47,216 nucleotides of DNA from a virus. The notes under the pieces were generated by a model. It was not told the origin of the DNA. It worked only from the letters and a program-made list of their open reading frames with translations, and ran no database searches. Position 1 is the first letter of the stretch. Every line of letters begins with the position of its first letter. Where the stretch lies: positions 1 through 47,216 of the IMG/VR virus record IMGVR_UViG_3300031702_000009; one strand, given 5' to 3'. Below are positions 3,551-30,365 of this stretch, in pieces. The translations under genes and the position numbers were made by a program.

Positions 3551-3994
3551 TTACTCCTTCAATGAAAAAATATTTTCTAAAATGTTTACATTAGTTACAC
3601 GATCATATCGGAAACTACGAAAGCCTTTTGCTTCAATAGCCCATACTGCACAGACCTTGTCCGATACTTCTCGAACTTTCTTTTGCGACAGTGGGTCGGC
3701 TTTCTTTGCTGGAGGAAGAAAACTTGTAATAAGTGTACAAGGCATCTTACGTTCGTCTCCGTCAAGTTTTAGGAATGTTATTTCCACTACTTCCTTGCGT
3801 AGCATTTCCATCAGTTCGCTCCGTGTTGGAATTCCCTTTAGTGCTGCCACTGTTTCGCTGACCGAAGATTCGATCGTAGCTGTTTCTGTTATAGAAACAT
3901 TATTTGTATACTCTGAACCGGTATCAATTGTAATAGCAAGTTCACTATCAATTGCTTTCTGAGCTTTGTTATTAAACGTATCTAAATCATTCAT
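3551..3994 (-). CDS. WYL_2 (DUF2693)-like SH3-fold protein
   Basis: 147 residues from the ATG preceded by AAGGAGCAGACG. A longer frame starting at 4048 overlaps the clpP stop as TAATG and would add 18 residues, but that extension simply translates the ribosome-binding region. The segment from about residue 65 to the end (EITFLKLDGDERKMPCTL ... GFRSFRYDRVTNV) matches the small beta-barrel WYL_2/DUF2693 family common in T4-like phages. Function unknown; possibly nucleic-acid or peptide binding. Confidence 0.65.
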   Translation of the reverse strand: MNDLDTFNNKAQKAIDSELAITIDTGSEYTNNVSITETATIESSVSETVAALKGIPTRSELMEMLRKEVVEITFLKLDGDERKMPCTLITSFLPPAKKADPLSQKKVREVSDKVCAVWAIEAKGFRSFRYDRVTNVNILENIFSLKE

Positions 3995-4047
3995 CGTCTG
4001 CTCCTTTTGTTTCACTTCTAACCAACATACATCCAACCATTGGCTCA

Positions 4048-4662
4048 TTAGCGTTTCACAACAACTTTGTCTGCTAGTCCGTGTTCTACTGCTTCTTCGG
4101 CAGTAAGGAATGTATCAAACTTCATTGTTTCAAATAGTTCGTCATATGTCTTACCAGCTGTGTTGTGACGCACATAAAGTTCTGTAAGACGTTTGTTTAC
4201 TTTCATTGATTCATTAAATGCTCGTTGTGCATCTTCAAACTGTAGCTCTTGTACGTGTACACTACCTGAAGTGCCTCGTGTGCCTGAGCTTACTCTGTGA
4301 ATCATTGTACGTGCTTCTGGCAATATATTACGCTTACCTGCTGTGCCTGCCATAGCTAGGAATGATCCCATACTACACGCTTGACCCATTACAATAGTAC
4401 GCACATCACATTTGATGAACTGCATAGCATCGTAAATAGCAAGACCTGCTGTTACTGCACCGCCTGGACTGTTGATGTACAGATTAATCTCTTTGTCAGG
4501 ACTAACACTTTCTAAGTATAGCAGTTGCGCTACAATAATATTAGCCATGTTGTCTTCTACTGGACCGTTAAGCATAATAATGCGGTCTTTCATTAAGCGA
4601 CTGTAAATATCGTATGCACGTTCGCCGCTTGACTCTTTTTCAATTACTGTTGGGATTAGCAT
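4048..4662 (-). CDS. clpP: ATP-dependent Clp protease proteolytic subunit ClpP
   Basis: 204 residues. All features of the self-compartmentalised serine protease are present: NSPGG oxyanion region near 64-68, nucleophile Ser97 in QACSMGS, His122 in MIHR, and the Asp of KFDTFLT near 183. The handle region between His and Asp is somewhat longer than in E. coli ClpP. ClpP degrades proteins unfolded by ClpX or ClpA. No Clp ATPase is encoded in the window, so it presumably works with host ATPases. ClpS (17098) and a tmRNA whose tag ends in ALAA (27215) are encoded by the same phage. Confidence 0.95.
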
Positions 4663-11395: not shown

Positions 11396-14002
11396 TTATT
11401 TGTATTGCATGTCGACCATTGCTTCATGCTTTATTTGACTTGCTAGGCCGTTTAATAACCCTCTTTTATTTTCAGGCACTTTGCTTGCATTGTATATACT
11501 GTCACTTCCATAAAAATCTCCAGCTACTTGGACTTGTCCTCCGTAGGTAGTAAACCCTGGTAAGAAGTTAATTAGCGCACTTATTTGTGCTTGGATTGCC
11601 GCTTGTTCTTTTAAACTAGTAGCGGTTGCCATATCCTTTGCTAAACTTACTAACTTGTTTTTAATAATTTCTTTCATCTTCTTTTTCTTTGCAACGGCTT
11701 TTTGTTCAGCTGTCATCTTTGTTGGCTTAACTACTTTCTTGGCAACGGCGGTAGTTCCTTCAGTATCATCACCGGCTTCGCCATCTGTTCCTTTGTCTGG
11801 GGATCCATCACTTTCATCATCTGATCCGTCTTTATCCACTGACTGTTCCACATCACTACTGGGCTCTTCTTCTGCCTCTTCTTTATCATCAGTTACCTCT
11901 TCTTCCTTGACTGCCTCTTCAACTACTTCTATTTCTTCTATTTCTTCAACTACTTCTACTTCTTCTACTGCTAGTTCGTCTTCAATAAGTTCGCTCATTG
12001 TTTCTACTTCTACTTCCATTTCAATTTCAATAACATTAGCATCTAGCTGTGCCATTTCCATCTCAACTTCTGCTTCAATTGATTCAACTAGTATCTCTAA
12101 CTCAACTAACTCAGCTTTTTGTTCAACTTGGGCTATACTAGCAAGTGGAGCAATAACTGGCCCTGCTACTTCAAAGCTATTAAACGACTCAACTATTACT
12201 GGAGTATCAAATGCTGTTTCAACTGCAATTTCAATTGGTACTATTTCTTCAACTACTTCCATTACTGGTGCTTCGACTACTTCCATTTCTATTATAACTA
12301 CTACCGGTGTATCATTAATAATTGAATCTATAACTGCATCACCTGTTATTGAAACCTCTGTAATAGATTCAGCACTAATAATGTCAGCTGTATTGTCTGC
12401 AATATCTTCTGCTGTTGTAGTGCCGTCATCTACATCAGGAGTTGCATCATCAATTACTACTGCTACTGTGTATCCCGGACACCCTGGATTATATAATGCA
12501 TTAATACTACACTGATTATCAAAGTATGCAATTTCGTAGTTGGGACAAGTTGTATCGTATAACCCGCTTGCTGTACATTGCTGACTAAAGTATGCCGCGG
12601 CATAACCTGGGCAAGTACTGTCGTATAACGCACTAATGCCACACTGCTGATTAAAGTATGCTGTTGCGTAACCAGGGCACTGACTGTCATACAGCGTGTT
12701 TAAGCTACATTGTTGATTCAAATATGCTGTTGCATACCCAGGACAAGTACTGTCGTATAACGCACTAATGCCACACTGTTGATTAAAGTATGCTGTAGCA
12801 TACCCAGGACAAGTGCTGTCGTATAACGCACTAGCTGTACATTGTTGATTAAAGTATGCTGTTGCATAACCCGGGCATCCTGAATCGTATAATGCACTTG
12901 CTGAGCATTGTTGGTCGTAATAAGCTGAGGCATATCCCGGACAACCACTGTCGTATAATGCACTTGCTGAACATTGTTGGTTGTAATATGCTGTAGCATA
13001 TCCTGGACACCCACTATCGTATAATGGGTCACTACTACATTGCTGATTGTATTGTGCTGTTGCATAGCCGGGACATCCACTGTCATATAATGCACTTGCT
13101 GAACATTGTTGGTTATAGTGTGCATTTGCATAACCTGAACATCCACTATCGTATAATGGATCAGCTGAACATTGTTGATTAAAGTATGCTGTTGCATAAC
13201 CTGAACATCCACTATCGTATAATGCATTTGCATTACATTGATTGTTATATTCATTAGATGCGTATGCTTCTGAGTAACCTGGACAACTAGTACTATGTAG
13301 CGGAGTATTTGTGCAAATATCTGTAGAAACTATAATGTCGCCGACCATGTTTTTAACTTTAGGGCCGTAATTTCCTGCCCAGAAACCAGCATCATACCCT
13401 TGAAGAAGAATATCAACAGTACTGATCTCAGTACCTGGAGTTGATTGAGTAGTGCCTATCCAACTTAATATTTGTGTTGAAATCCAGTCGTCAGTAACTG
13501 CTTGACCGTAATCAAATGTCTGTTCGTAAACATGAGTTCCATCTGCAGACTTAGCTGTTATTGATAAAGTTAATGGATCAATACATACGCCATTAACTTT
13601 TTCAACTAGACAATTACCGTTAATAGTATTAGTTTGATTATTGCGATAATCAAACGTAGTTCGATATCCGTCTATCTTAAGACCAGATCCTGCTAGTGCT
13701 TGTGTTATTGCATGTTGTATTGCCCAAGATCCTGGATTGTGTTTAAAGCGGACAAAGCCATTATGTCCATTGCCGACTTCTGTACTAGCACCAGTTGTAG
13801 TGCCGCCAGTTAATCCACTTTGTACATTTACGGTTGATTGCGAATGTGTGTCGCTGGCACAGCCCGTTCCAGTGATAAAGTTTGTAGTACCATCAGTACT
13901 ACAATTACTAGATGTTAATGTTTCGGCGTAGGCGTTATTAGAGCAGGAGTAACAAAAGACCAACACTAAGAGCGCCGTAGCCAGCACCTTTAAGTACGTC
14001 AT
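11396..14002 (-). CDS. Large exported protein with twelve Cys-rich 22-residue repeats
   Basis: 868 residues from the ATG after AAGGAGAAAAAGGGAA. The signal peptide is MTYLKVLATALLVLVFCYSC..., cleaved after AYA at about residue 25. An N-terminal globular domain (about 25-250, with several Cys) is followed by twelve tandem repeats (NQQCSASALYDSGCPGYATA type, 22 residues, two Cys each). Then come a long acidic Val/Ile/Glu/Thr-rich stretch, a Lys-rich linker, and a C-terminal domain with FLPGFTTYGGQVQVAG. The two Cys in every unit suggest disulfide-bonded repeats outside the cytoplasm. It could be a surface or periplasmic phage-encoded adhesin or shield, or a tail protein; none is proven. Confidence 0.75.
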   Translation of the reverse strand: MTYLKVLATALLVLVFCYSCSNNAYAETLTSSNCSTDGTTNFITGTGCASDTHSQSTVNVQSGLTGGTTTGASTEVGNGHNGFVRFKHNPGSWAIQHAITQALAGSGLKIDGYRTTFDYRNNQTNTINGNCLVEKVNGVCIDPLTLSITAKSADGTHVYEQTFDYGQAVTDDWISTQILSWIGTTQSTPGTEISTVDILLQGYDAGFWAGNYGPKVKNMVGDIIVSTDICTNTPLHSTSCPGYSEAYASNEYNNQCNANALYDSGCSGYATAYFNQQCSADPLYDSGCSGYANAHYNQQCSASALYDSGCPGYATAQYNQQCSSDPLYDSGCPGYATAYYNQQCSASALYDSGCPGYASAYYDQQCSASALYDSGCPGYATAYFNQQCTASALYDSTCPGYATAYFNQQCGISALYDSTCPGYATAYLNQQCSLNTLYDSQCPGYATAYFNQQCGISALYDSTCPGYAAAYFSQQCTASGLYDTTCPNYEIAYFDNQCSINALYNPGCPGYTVAVVIDDATPDVDDGTTTAEDIADNTADIISAESITEVSITGDAVIDSIINDTPVVVIIEMEVVEAPVMEVVEEIVPIEIAVETAFDTPVIVESFNSFEVAGPVIAPLASIAQVEQKAELVELEILVESIEAEVEMEMAQLDANVIEIEMEVEVETMSELIEDELAVEEVEVVEEIEEIEVVEEAVKEEEVTDDKEEAEEEPSSDVEQSVDKDGSDDESDGSPDKGTDGEAGDDTEGTTAVAKKVVKPTKMTAEQKAVAKKKKMKEIIKNKLVSLAKDMATATSLKEQAAIQAQISALINFLPGFTTYGGQVQVAGDFYGSDSIYNASKVPENKRGLLNGLASQIKHEAMVDMQYK
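12455..13246 (-). repeat. Twelve tandem 66-bp coding repeats
   Basis: In-frame 66-base repeats encode 22-residue units N-Q-Q-C-x3-x-L-Y-D-S-x-C-P-G-Y-A-x-A-Y-x. The central units are the most alike and the last two the most divergent, as expected of an array growing by recombination. A degenerate unit without the NQQC start precedes the array (DICTNTPLHSTSCPGY). Confidence 0.9.
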
Positions 14003-14492
14003 TTCCCTTTTTCTCCTTCTCAATGTTTGCAGGTTGCTTATCTGGGTTTGCATCCCACTTAGCTTGTGCTTCAACACCAATGGAGCCTCTAAACGGGCAA
14101 GGAGTACCTGCCATTTCCATTGCGTTATACACTCTATCATCCTGACACATCATACTAACAGCGGCGACTTTCATCCCCATATCGTATAGTGTTTTGGATA
14201 GCTTTAGCATTTCACAGTTCATGTCTCGTACAGTCGCGCCGGTAGACAAACCTATAATTTGTGTCTGAACTGCACCACTTACGCCTACAGTACATAGGTC
14301 GCTATTACTAGCATTAATACCAGGACTAATGGCACTTGGAGGTGGGCTTTTAACAGTTGTAGTTGATGTACCGTTTGATGTAACGGTTGAGTTACTTGTT
14401 GAATCAGTTACAATTGGATCAGCATATGCTGTTCCTGCTACACCCAGCGTTATTACTGTGAGTAGTAGTAATGTCATGGTTTTCCGTAACAT
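13938..14492 (-). CDS. Exported protein with signal peptide and C-terminal membrane tail
   Basis: 184 residues from the ATG after AAGGAGACAGA. Signal peptide MLRKTMTLLLLTVITLGVAG with likely cleavage after AYA; a Thr/Ser-rich linker (about 25-60); a Cys-containing helical domain (DMNCEMLKLSKTLYDMGMKV); and a C-terminal hydrophobic stretch ending LLLLLL. It overlaps the repeat-protein gene by 65 bases. It is the first gene of the exported-protein operon, behind a late-type promoter (14540-14547). Family unknown. Confidence 0.7.
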   Translation of the reverse strand: MLRKTMTLLLLTVITLGVAGTAYADPIVTDSTSNSTVTSNGTSTTTVKSPPPSAISPGINASNSDLCTVGVSGAVQTQIIGLSTGATVRDMNCEMLKLSKTLYDMGMKVAAVSMMCQDDRVYNAMEMAGTPCPFRGSIGVEAQAKWDANPDKQPANIEKEKKGNDVLKGAGYGALSVGLLLLLL

Positions 14493-24814: not shown

Positions 24815-24843
24815 ATTATAGCACTGGACTAATATATTGTCAA
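24815..24843 (-). promoter_or_regulatory. Sigma-70-type promoter
   Basis: Minus strand TTGACA, 17-base spacer, TATAAT, upstream of the cell-wall hydrolase. Confidence 0.85.
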
Positions 24844-26867: not shown

Positions 26868-26917
26868 TTGTTATGTTTTCCTTGTAGTTAAAGCTAAGAG
26901 AAAGTCTCATAGCGTCA

Positions 26918-26925
26918 TATTTAGC
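26918..26925 (-). promoter_or_regulatory. Late-type promoter GCTAAATA
   Basis: Minus strand GCTAAATA 51 bases upstream of the porin-like gene; a variant also seen at 42750, 41096 and 46265. The adjacent AGAAAGT/ACTTTCT hairpin (26927-26944) closes the upstream micro-gene. Confidence 0.45.
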
Positions 26926-26955
26926 AGAAAGTATTAACTTTCTGATAGTTCTGAA

Positions 26956-27081
26956 TCAGTCGTTGCGCTTACTCCTAAACATATCCCAAAACATCCAACA
27001 CAATGCACTAACTTGCATTAGTATTACGCCGATGCCTACTCCGAGGAAAAAACTAAAGCCTACTTTGATTAACAGTTCCAT
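26956..27081 (-). CDS. 41-residue single-pass membrane protein
   Basis: Starts at ATG 27081 with AGAGGA upstream. Sequence MELLIKVGFSFFLGVGIGVI..., one membrane segment (about 5-31) and a short basic tail (RSKRND). The clear ribosome-binding site and promoter-like element (27117-27145) support a real gene. It could be a small holin, antiholin or regulator of a host membrane protein; no homologue is recognised. Confidence 0.6.
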   Translation of the reverse strand: MELLIKVGFSFFLGVGIGVILMQVSALCWMFWDMFRSKRND

Positions 27082-27116
27082 TAGTAATCCTCTTTGTTGT
27101 TTGTTTCCTTAATACA

Positions 27117-27145
27117 GTTATAGCATGAAAAAGGAAAGTACGCAA
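27117..27145 (-). promoter_or_regulatory. Possible promoter for the 41-residue protein
   Basis: Minus strand TTGCGT, 17-base spacer, TATAAC; weak -35. Confidence 0.35.
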
Positions 27146-27190
27146 GAGTGCAAAAGTATAGAAGTATGCTAATTAGTCGGGGTATGATAA

Positions 27191-27214
27191 AAGAAAAGCA
27201 CCCGAAGGTGCCTT
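27191..27214 (-). terminator. Rho-independent terminator of the tmRNA
   Basis: On the minus strand GCACC-TTCG-GGTGC, a UUCG tetraloop hairpin, followed by TTTTCTTTT. It lies directly after the tmRNA coding piece. Confidence 0.88.
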
Positions 27215-27468
27215 TCTCTTGCTATGTTTGGTAACAAGGCCTAACTACCTCGTAACAGCCTAGGCTGCTAATGCTATATTTGCGTTTGCAATTATAAGTT
27301 TTCTTCGCGTTAACCCAGCTTAGATCGGGGTAACTCCACTCGCCTATTAATCCGCCTGTCGATCCTTGTTCAGCCCCATCAACTATACACTTATTAAATG
27401 TACACTTGGTGGAGCTGCCGGGTACTGCCCCCGGGTCCAGCTCGTCGTTTAGCTTGTTTCAACGTTAC
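27215..27468 (-). ncRNA. ssrA: tmRNA, circularly permuted two-piece form
   Basis: On the minus strand the acceptor piece comes first: T-arm analogue CCGGG-GGCAGTA-CCCGG, acceptor CAGCTCC, discriminator A and encoded CCA (CCA at 27407-27409). A 29-base spacer follows (27378-27406), then the coding piece starting GGGGCTG at 27377, which pairs with CAGCTCC (one G-U). It continues AACAAGGATCGAC, close to the tmRNA D-arm consensus, into the tag frame. This order is the permuted arrangement of alphaproteobacterial tmRNAs, where processing removes the spacer to leave two paired RNAs. The promoter at 27475-27503 and terminator at 27191-27214 frame it exactly. tmRNA frees stalled ribosomes and tags the product for proteolysis. 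Boundaries at the outer ends are approximate. Confidence 0.9.
27260..27289 (-). other. tmRNA tag reading frame (ANANIALAA)
   Basis: The resume codon GCA at 27289-27287 starts A-N-A-N-I-A-L-A-A followed by TAG. The start (GCA AAC) and end (GCA TTA GCA GCC stop) mirror the E. coli tag ANDENYALAA. The ALAA end is the signal that ClpXP-type proteases recognise. No upstream in-frame Ala codon competes. Confidence 0.88.
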
Positions 27469-27474
27469 ATACTA

Positions 27475-27503
27475 TTTATAACATGTTTACGCTACTTTGT
27501 CAA
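27475..27503 (-). promoter_or_regulatory. Sigma-70-type promoter of the tmRNA
   Basis: Minus strand TTGACA, 17-base spacer, TATAAA. The -35 box lies in the last codons of the Rieske-like gene. Confidence 0.82.
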
Positions 27504-28572
27504 CCTTTTCCTTTAAAGGGTTAGAAGGATCTACGTCTAAGTACTTTGCCCACTCTGCATAGAAGTGACGCATGCCAACTTCATCATGTATAGTGTTGTT
27601 TTCATGTCTGCCATGTAGTATGCTTCTCTTCTCAGTGCCAGGAGCCATAGCTACGCCTTGTCCGGTAACAGCCAACAAGTCTTCGTGCAAGTTACGTCCG
27701 AACGGTCCCCATATTGTATTGTGATCATTTATACGTTGTTCGCGTTCTTCCGGAGTATCACTTAACAAACCGTATCCACGGAACTCAATTAATACACTGT
27801 CTGGACCTAGTGGAGTAATACTATCTGTACGGTAAGCACTGCCTCGTAGGTTAAAGTTGTAGCCTGGAAACAAGTCTACCATGTACCACTGGTTGGGCGG
27901 AACTCCTGGAAAGGTTAATGCTCCACGGTCTGCGGCTCCTTCAAACTTGTCATACTGCACTTCGAAGCTACCAACGTTAACGTGTCCGTTGTCAAAGCCT
28001 GTACATGCACGAGCAAAGTACTCATCAGTGAATCCAGTTATTCTATTAAAGTAATGTAAATAGTCGTGATAGAACTCACTGTTAGTGTCATGCCATAACT
28101 TATAGTTTGTAGGAATGATTGCTTTATGGTAATGGAATACTTCTAGTTCTTCTGTGTCAATTGCTGTAGCAATACAATCAAATGCACCGTCTGTCCATTG
28201 CTCTACGTCCATGGTTGGGTTATCGTTTAGTGTTGTCCATACCATGCCGCCATATTTTACTTCGCTGTGTAACTCTCTAGATTCAATTTTATAGTCTGGA
28301 TCAACTGTACCAGCTACTCCCTTGAGTCCAGGATTGATATAGCATCCAATACGATCACCGTGATTGATTATAACTATGTTTCGAAATGCAATTTGAGATG
28401 TTCGATAGTCTCCTGGATTCTTTATTTCACTCTTGTGAATGATAGGGATCCAAACTTTAGAAAATATCTTTTCGATTTCTTGTTTGTAAATTTCATGACT
28501 ACTGTAGCACTCGCTACTTATGTATTCGACTGTTGGTTCTGCTAACCAATCTTTGTGGTTTCTTGCACCCAT
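27487..28572 (-). CDS. Rieske-oxygenase-like protein lacking the Fe-S cluster ligands
   Basis: 361 residues. The N-terminus (YKQEIEKIFSKVWIPIIHKS followed by PGDYRTSQI) and the C-terminal domain follow ring-hydroxylating oxygenase alpha subunits. The catalytic domain keeps NYKLWHDTNSEFYHDYLHYF, with His169 and His173 as mononuclear iron ligands, and an acidic candidate in NLHEDLLAV. The Rieske motifs CxH and CxxH are missing: the places where they should be read CYINPGLKGV and SEVKYGGMVW. It therefore probably cannot bind a [2Fe-2S] cluster. It could be a catalytically altered oxygenase or a binding protein. A ferredoxin reductase gene lies 0.6 kb upstream. Confidence 0.75.
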   Translation of the reverse strand: MGARNHKDWLAEPTVEYISSECYSSHEIYKQEIEKIFSKVWIPIIHKSEIKNPGDYRTSQIAFRNIVIINHGDRIGCYINPGLKGVAGTVDPDYKIESRELHSEVKYGGMVWTTLNDNPTMDVEQWTDGAFDCIATAIDTEELEVFHYHKAIIPTNYKLWHDTNSEFYHDYLHYFNRITGFTDEYFARACTGFDNGHVNVGSFEVQYDKFEGAADRGALTFPGVPPNQWYMVDLFPGYNFNLRGSAYRTDSITPLGPDSVLIEFRGYGLLSDTPEEREQRINDHNTIWGPFGRNLHEDLLAVTGQGVAMAPGTEKRSILHGRHENNTIHDEVGMRHFYAEWAKYLDVDPSNPLKEKVDKVA

Positions 28573-28905: not shown

Positions 28906-29194
28906 GTTCTTTTTCTACAGTCTCTTTTGTTTCTTTTTCTTCAGGACGGATAGGTTCTAGCCATGTGTCAGCAATGTATGCTTTAGGACTTGGACCCATC
29001 TGTATTGTAATGTCGTCTCCACCGATCCACCAATAGTGGTCTGTAACTAAGCAAGTACAAGTAAACCCCATAAATTCAAAGGTTTCATTTTCTTGGAACT
29101 TACCTATGTACTCAACTACTTTTACAACTCGTCCAATATTCTCTGGACGCACTGAGTAGATAATTTTAGCATAGTCGCCTTGTTTACACTTCAT
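28889..29194 (-). CDS. Small beta-rich protein coupled to the ferredoxin reductase gene
   Basis: 101 residues. GDYAKIIYSVRPENIGRVVKVVEYIG and IADTWLEPIRP suggest an SH3-like barrel. Two Cys sit as CTC in the centre. It overlaps the reductase gene by ATGA, so they are translated together. The role is unknown. Confidence 0.6.
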   Translation of the reverse strand: MKCKQGDYAKIIYSVRPENIGRVVKVVEYIGKFQENETFEFMGFTCTCLVTDHYWWIGGDDITIQMGPSPKAYIADTWLEPIRPEEKETKETVEKELDMFM

Positions 29195-29916
29195 GATACA
29201 AATGCCTTCTCTTGTACATAGGTTGCTGATTGTTTGGTACTACCTTCTACAAAGCTAAGGCTTTCTAAACGTGCTTTCATTTCTTCGTTAAATCCCATCG
29301 AACCGCACAACATAACTCTGTCATCAGTTGGATTAACTCCGTACCACAAATCCTCATTGTCAATGAAGTGTGTAATGCGTCCGCGTCTTATATAATCTTC
29401 TTGTGTTACTGTTGGAATATATTCAATTGGTAAGTCTTCTAGCATTGCGTTGTATGCCTGTAGTTCTGCTACTTGCCTTACTGTCCAACAAAGTGTTATC
29501 TTATCGTAGATATCATATATCTCTGGATCTCTAAGCAAACTAATAAAAGGAGCAATACCTGTTCCTGTTGCCATCAACCAAAGATGTCCGCCAAGTGTTA
29601 CGTTAGCTAGTGTAAGTGTGCCAGTTGGCTTTTCGCCTACTTCTAGTTCATCACCTACTTGAATGTGCTGTAGCTTACTTGTTAGTGGACCATCTTGTAC
29701 TTTGATACTATAGAATTCTAAATAGTCATCGTAAGGACCACTTGCAATTGAATATGCTCTTAGTATCGGTTTGTTCTTTTGAAGCTTCTCTGAAAAATGA
29801 TCTAACCCAATCATTACAAACTCGCCTGCGGCAAATCTGTATGTGCGTGGTCGTTCTGTTCTAATCCGAAATAGCTTGTCTGTATAATGTTCTACTTCAA
29901 TTACTTTTAGTTTCAT
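29191..29916 (-). CDS. fpr: Ferredoxin/flavodoxin-NADP reductase
   Basis: 241 residues, full length for bacterial Fpr. RAYSIAS binds FAD (about 51-57), GTGIAPFISLLRD binds NADP (about 117-129), VMLCGSMGF follows, and the C-terminus is YVQEKAFVS with the stacking aromatic region. It passes electrons between NADPH and ferredoxin or flavodoxin. Heme oxygenase and bilin reductase in this genome need reduced ferredoxin, so it may feed them; no ferredoxin gene is seen in this window. Confidence 0.92.
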   Translation of the reverse strand: MKLKVIEVEHYTDKLFRIRTERPRTYRFAAGEFVMIGLDHFSEKLQKNKPILRAYSIASGPYDDYLEFYSIKVQDGPLTSKLQHIQVGDELEVGEKPTGTLTLANVTLGGHLWLMATGTGIAPFISLLRDPEIYDIYDKITLCWTVRQVAELQAYNAMLEDLPIEYIPTVTQEDYIRRGRITHFIDNEDLWYGVNPTDDRVMLCGSMGFNEEMKARLESLSFVEGSTKQSATYVQEKAFVS

Positions 29917-30336: not shown

Positions 30337-30365
30337 ATTATAACACCTTCCTGGTGTTCTGTCAA
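30337..30365 (-). promoter_or_regulatory. Sigma-70-type promoter
   Basis: Minus strand TTGACA, 17-base spacer, TATAAT. The TGA in the -35 box is the stop codon of the PAAR gene. Confidence 0.85.

Follow-up and report, generated by a model that had tools for sequence, protein, structure and literature searches.

On its minus strand at 27191-27503, the viral record IMGVR_UViG_3300031702_000009 (IMG/VR; the whole stretch of 47,216 nucleotides (nt) analysed, positions 1 to 47,216, is referred to as the window) carries a gene for a permuted, two-piece transfer-messenger RNA (tmRNA). We consider it likely that this gene, as read from its sequence, yields a working, phage-owned tmRNA of the alphaproteobacterial type, which would raise the capacity for ribosome rescue in infection. 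For the related genes of marine phages, we are confident that the permuted arrangement serves as a cargo slot, with small protein genes in the spacer that separates the tmRNA pieces and one transcript acting both as tmRNA precursor and as messenger RNA (mRNA); the window gene represents the empty-slot form. The cargo-bearing spacers look undescribed and appear to be a more interesting result than the window gene; no description of protein genes in tmRNA spacers was found in the literature searched, which omits most subscription journals.

The window gene was matched over the full length of two Rfam covariance models with cmscan, alpha_tmRNA (RF01849; 92.1 bits, E 7.2e-24, minus strand 27507-27204) and tmRNA_permuted (RF04321; 100.9 bits), with scores about twice the respective cut-offs of 50 and 47 bits. 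In nested folding, the transcript paired GGGGCUG with CAGCUCC and was more stable than shuffled versions of itself (z -4.6, with 0 of 200 as low). The initial annotation, made from the sequence without database searches, had proposed a phage-encoded, permuted two-piece tmRNA of alphaproteobacterial type with its pieces paired through GGGGCTG/CAGCTCC, and had suggested the alpha_tmRNA model and structure prediction as checks. The pairing is present in sequence and fold, the model matched in full, and the proposed type is backed by both Rfam matches, by the tmRNAs of viral relatives and by a viral-only clade; neither the absence of a model match nor pairing limited to the acceptor stem, named beforehand as evidence to the contrary, was found. 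ARAGORN does not detect the window tmRNA and, of 19 relatives tried, also overlooks ten; phage two-piece tmRNAs are therefore probably under-counted.

Relatives were collected by a T-arm pattern scan, which returned at least 120 viral stretches, and pooled with the loci of the neighbouring oxygenase gene. The downstream partner strand was located in 138 viral loci, which comprise ten acceptor-stem types, each paired at 7 of 7 positions with G-U allowed (for example CAGCTCC/GGGGCTG, CGACTCC/GGGGTCG and CTGCTCC/GGGGCAG). As the partner strand was selected by pairing, one locus alone is little proof; together, however, the covariance-model matches and the ten coordinated stem variants prove, at the level of sequence, a real and maintained tmRNA. 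A tree built from 177 core sequences, for which its 146 columns are few, places the window gene within a viral-only clade of 38 rows (starred), and the tmRNAs of an AT-rich alphaproteobacterial order resembling SAR11 form a clade of their own with 97/98 support. By this placement, the window tmRNA probably represents a long-established phage lineage, evolving by the exchange of segments, and was not recently copied from any of the sampled hosts; among isolated phages, no close DNA match to the gene was obtained apart from a short match in the T-arm and others due to chance. A functionless remnant, captured when a host ssrA gene recombined imprecisely, is hardly credible for a gene that is complete with promoter and terminator, keeps its acceptor pairing through coordinated changes across ten types, belongs to a phage-only clade and recurs as a permuted tmRNA in 31 of the 50 viral records bearing the upstream oxygenase gene, even though integration at ssrA is common and prophages are known to contain fragments of the gene (discussed in PMC9004378).

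All parts of the gene lie on the minus strand. The promoter, an exact match to TTGACA-17-TATAAA (27475..27503), sits within the final codons of the gene upstream and overlaps a TATAAATA motif. The acceptor piece (27407..27468, with position 1 of the RF04321 model at 27468) consists of a 5' part, the T-arm CCGGG-GGCAGUA-CCCGG (27434-27418), the acceptor 3' strand CAGCUCC (CAGCTCC in DNA, 27417-27411) and A73 with the encoded CCA (ACCA, 27410-27407). It is separated from the coding piece by a spacer of exactly 29 nt (27378..27406), which contains a hairpin and no open reading frame (ORF). The coding piece, taken from the acceptor 5' strand through the stop codon of the tag (27260..27377), is covered end to end by RF04321, and its pairing is kept in relatives. 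It begins with the acceptor 5' strand GGGGCUG (27377-27371), which supplies the G3-U70 pair of the 7-bp stem; this pair and A73 are known alanine signals. The tag frame (27260..27289) starts at the resume codon GCA at 27289, is preceded by UAUAAUU as in the covariance model, and reads GCA AAC GCA AAT ATA GCA TTA GCA GCC (27289-27263) and TAG (27262-27260), corresponding to ANANIALAA and the stop UAG; the identical tag is found in locus L049. The 3' domain of the coding piece (27216..27259) is of the type with GCUGUUACGAGGUAGUUAGGCCUUGUUACCAAACAUAGC and agrees at 41 of 41 positions with loci L122 and L064, while L124 and L134 have a different 3' domain. It leads into an intrinsic terminator (approximately 27189..27220) with a 14-bp stem, a UUCG loop and a U-rich 3' arm, common to L122 at 30 of 30 positions. 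Promoter, CCA-bearing acceptor piece, 29-base spacer, coding piece and terminator thus all lie where the initial annotation had placed them.

The proposed function is read from this organization: its own promoter and terminator, the permuted order, the encoded CCA, the 7-bp stem with G3-U70, the resume codon and a tag ending in ALAA. Host RNase P and 3' nucleases would cleave the transcript into two RNAs that stay joined by pairing, host alanyl-tRNA synthetase would charge the product, and host SmpB would deliver it, in the infected cell, to ribosomes that have stalled on broken mRNAs. These would then append ANANIALAA and be freed, and the tagged product would be degraded by host proteases of the ClpXP type, the predicted outcome being an increased rescue capacity while host mRNA undergoes destruction. 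The suggestion of the initial annotation, that the RNA could rescue or tag products while host mRNA decays, is plausible, and a similar proposal has already been made for phage Melnitz (PMC9004378). Two points weigh against a working rescue RNA: the tree that sets it among phage genes has only 146 columns, and no SmpB gene was found on the window's record or among 50 viral records that are related or bear a tmRNA, mostly fragments, with a search that was positive in 10 of 14 control genomes. Because these records yielded no SmpB partner encoded by a phage, the window tmRNA presumably uses that of the host. The missing SmpB would suit a competitor or decoy, which occupies host SmpB and stalled ribosomes, mainly displaces the host tmRNA and alters the tag rather than adding rescue, as would a phage tag unlike every sampled alphaproteobacterial tag and the analogy with the tag-less form of phage DS6A (PMC11915505). 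We regard a decoy as unlikely, because the tag frame and the resume context are intact; these, the alanine identity and the conserved ALAA end would be needless for it.

The evidence for a cargo slot comes from the spacers of the related genes. Phage spacers are 8 to 361 nt long, with 29 nt the commonest length among related phages; bacterial spacers were shorter than 60 nt in 97 of the 100 genes read, and the two of at least 90 nt had no spacer-filling ORF. Cargo was scored in spacer families of 90 nt or longer, as an ATG frame starting no more than 25 nt from the CCA and filling at least 70% of the spacer. Among the 35 distinct phage families, 18 are filled by such an ORF, where dinucleotide shuffles predict 1.66, and the ORF is accompanied by a Shine-Dalgarno-like motif in most of the 18; it was also present in 17 of 103 loci from the pattern scan, a sample not selected for spacers. 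The cargo products have 30-112 amino acids, the cargo-bearing loci being L067, L108, L027, L072, L144, L157, L196, L061, L073, L014 and L100, with further ones in parts of L435-L514 and L519-L536 and in L332. The tmRNA models match across the cargo ORF in 20 of 20 loci tested.

One cargo product belongs to Pfam DUF6356 (E 5e-12, above the cut-off), a family encoded in the spacer at 11 loci and outside it at 38. A second family, of 62 residues, lies in the spacer at 33 and outside at 47 of its best 80 loci. The ratios of nonsynonymous to synonymous substitution rates (dN/dS) in the spacer, 0.19 for the 62-residue family and 0.07 for DUF6356, denote a constraint similar to that of the free copies (0.13 and 0.19), and by this measure purifying selection acts on both families when they lie in the spacer. 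The isolate Melnitz (L332) carries an unannotated 54-codon spacer ORF that continues into the coding piece, and directly upstream of its tmRNA it has a gene of the 62-residue family. Free copies of this family in L447 and L505 (about 940-1001) begin about 15-20 nt past the CCA that ends an ordinary tRNA-like sequence; in both settings, this gene thus follows a CCA. How a single precursor of such a gene-within-gene can serve translation and also be processed into tmRNA lends itself to testing.

In the window itself the slot is empty: within its tmRNA subclade, L014 and L073 carry cargo, the window and L049 do not, and ten cargo proteins tried were not found elsewhere in the window. The abundance of filled spacers (18 of 35 long families, against 1.66 expected) and the free-standing occurrence of the cargo families could be taken to mean that the tmRNA persists in this lineage chiefly as a carrier of small spacer genes, with ribosome rescue secondary; this is very improbable, given that the window spacer is empty, that 45 of the 103 pattern-scan loci have spacers below 60 nt and that the tmRNA is conserved whether or not cargo is present. 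A second class of long spacers, of about 105 nt, has no ORF and a common sequence (e.g. GATACTGCAAGTA...GTGTGTTTATGATGGGG; L122 within 3812-4096, L034, L109), and is perhaps a structured RNA element.

The nine-residue tag of the window had been described as shorter than the typical 10-12 residues. This is arithmetically correct, and the commonest tag length across all bacteria is 10 (PMC11915505), but the length is no oddity: in the AT-rich order with genomes of 1.0-1.5 megabases, which by inference is probably SAR11, all 37 readable tags have nine residues (ANDELALAA, ANESYALAA and variants), so that such a tag is ordinary there and would be in keeping with a SAR11 host. Nine-residue tags of related phages include ANANIALAA, ANENFALAA and ANANYSLAA; others have 13 (ANDNYAPEMALAA) and up to 29 residues. 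Very long tags are exemplified by ANDNALSNVTFVDFSAPVTAVNEDFALAA (29 residues) and ANANFKPEAFTSIDMSMDSELLAA (24 residues), and long-tag loci are L150-L155, L159, L161, L162, L164, L165, L226 and L032. Comparison of the tag with alphaproteobacterial tags, put forward as a route to the host lineage, did not single out any sampled host. A genome scan for AN[ADEG]N[IFL]A[LF]AA, with some third codon positions fixed and hence not exhaustive, gave 99 matches, none of them alphaproteobacterial, and the true tags matching the pattern were mainly from Clostridia, Spirochaetes and Cloacimonadota. Bacterial genomes with the identical tag were rejected as a host clue, the ANANIALAA matches falling within unrelated proteins.

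The nearest relative of the window, L122, matches its oxygenase gene at 1032 of 1046 nt and is identical to it in the promoter, leader (54/54), trailer (41/41) and terminator (30/30) of the tmRNA gene; the coding piece agrees at only 65 of 79 positions, and L122 differs in its T-loop (canonical TTCGAAT), its stem (TACTCC/GGGGTAG) and its tag (ANENFALAA). L124 is the reverse, with the acceptor piece (45/46) and the coding piece (90/91) in common and another 3' domain and the tag ANDNYAPEMALAA. Since the two comparisons show opposite shared parts, the window gene is a mosaic and segments have evidently been exchanged between phages, with acceptor stems, tags and 3' domains swapped as modules. 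The 13-residue tag ANANIAPEMALAA of L107 and L216 differs from ANANIALAA by four codons, which makes the two suitable for testing the benefit of the tag to the phage.

Among 18,146 phage genomes, 53 two-piece tmRNAs have been reported, nearly all aquatic, and such tmRNAs have been published for the marine phages Melnitz and Mosig (PMC9004378); records such as that of phage DSS3_MAL1 also annotate a two-piece ssrA. The window gene is a well-supported addition to this known, little-studied set of phage rescue RNAs dependent on host SmpB and not a first. With the alphaproteobacterial two-piece tmRNA (RF01849, RF04321), it shares the permuted order, encoded CCA, 7-bp stem, GGCRGUA T-loop, a tag of the form ANxN... 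ending in AA and the full-length model matches; it differs in its phage location, its 3' domain and its alpha_tmRNA score of 92 bits, compared to mostly 200-318 for sampled bacterial members. With the ssrA of the Methylophilales phage Melnitz and of other marine and aquatic phages, it has in common the two-piece alphaproteobacterial type, the own promoter and the marine phage setting, but sequence and tag differ from Melnitz, and the spacer ORF of Melnitz has no counterpart. A glutamine riboswitch, as at Melnitz ssrA, was not matched up to E 10 within 26900-27700; 3' of phage ssrA this element is common, not defining (PMC9004378). The tmRNAs of the SAR11-like order (G438 and kin) resemble that of the window in their nine-residue tags ending in ALAA or AIAA, but besides their separate clade and tags (ANDELALAA/ANESYALAA) have spacers of mostly 4-17 nt. 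The phage-encoded relative in DS6A is a form without a tag frame, while the window gene has an intact tag and resume codon (PMC11915505).

The promoter hexamers TTGACA and TATAAA recur with the same N17 spacing before nine related phage tmRNAs. With up to one mismatch, the window contains ten TTGACA-17-TATAAW sites against 1.5 expected, the tmRNA promoter among them, and these are probably the early-promoter class of the phage. All ten are on the minus strand (e.g. 2796-2824, 24815-24843 and 30337-30365). A generic promoter scan of the window did not list the tmRNA promoter, because its rule accepts a second hexamer only when it ends in T; with the explicit TTGACA-17-TATAAA pattern the promoter is found.

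The virus record carries phage genes. Directly upstream of the tmRNA and outside it lies the gene of an MsmA-like ring-hydroxylating oxygenase alpha subunit (27487..28572, minus strand; Pfam PF00848), which shares 65.5% identity with a product of the SAR116 phage HMO-2011 annotated as methanesulfonate monooxygenase subunit and has relatives in at least 597 viral stretches. As a functional partner of the tmRNA, the oxygenase was discarded despite the link in 31 of 50 records: HMO-2011 has the oxygenase and no tmRNA, and the two are regarded as sharing a neighbourhood only. An FAD/NAD reductase-like gene is located near the oxygenase (29191-29916, minus strand). Elsewhere on the minus strand, the window encodes a protein of 914 amino acids (11396-14140) that contains units of about 20 residues repeated in tandem (QQCSASALYDSGCPGYATAYFN) and has an acidic tail, and, at one of its ends, six tRNA genes (Tyr, Trp, Glu, Thr, Gly and Ser; 9-2775).
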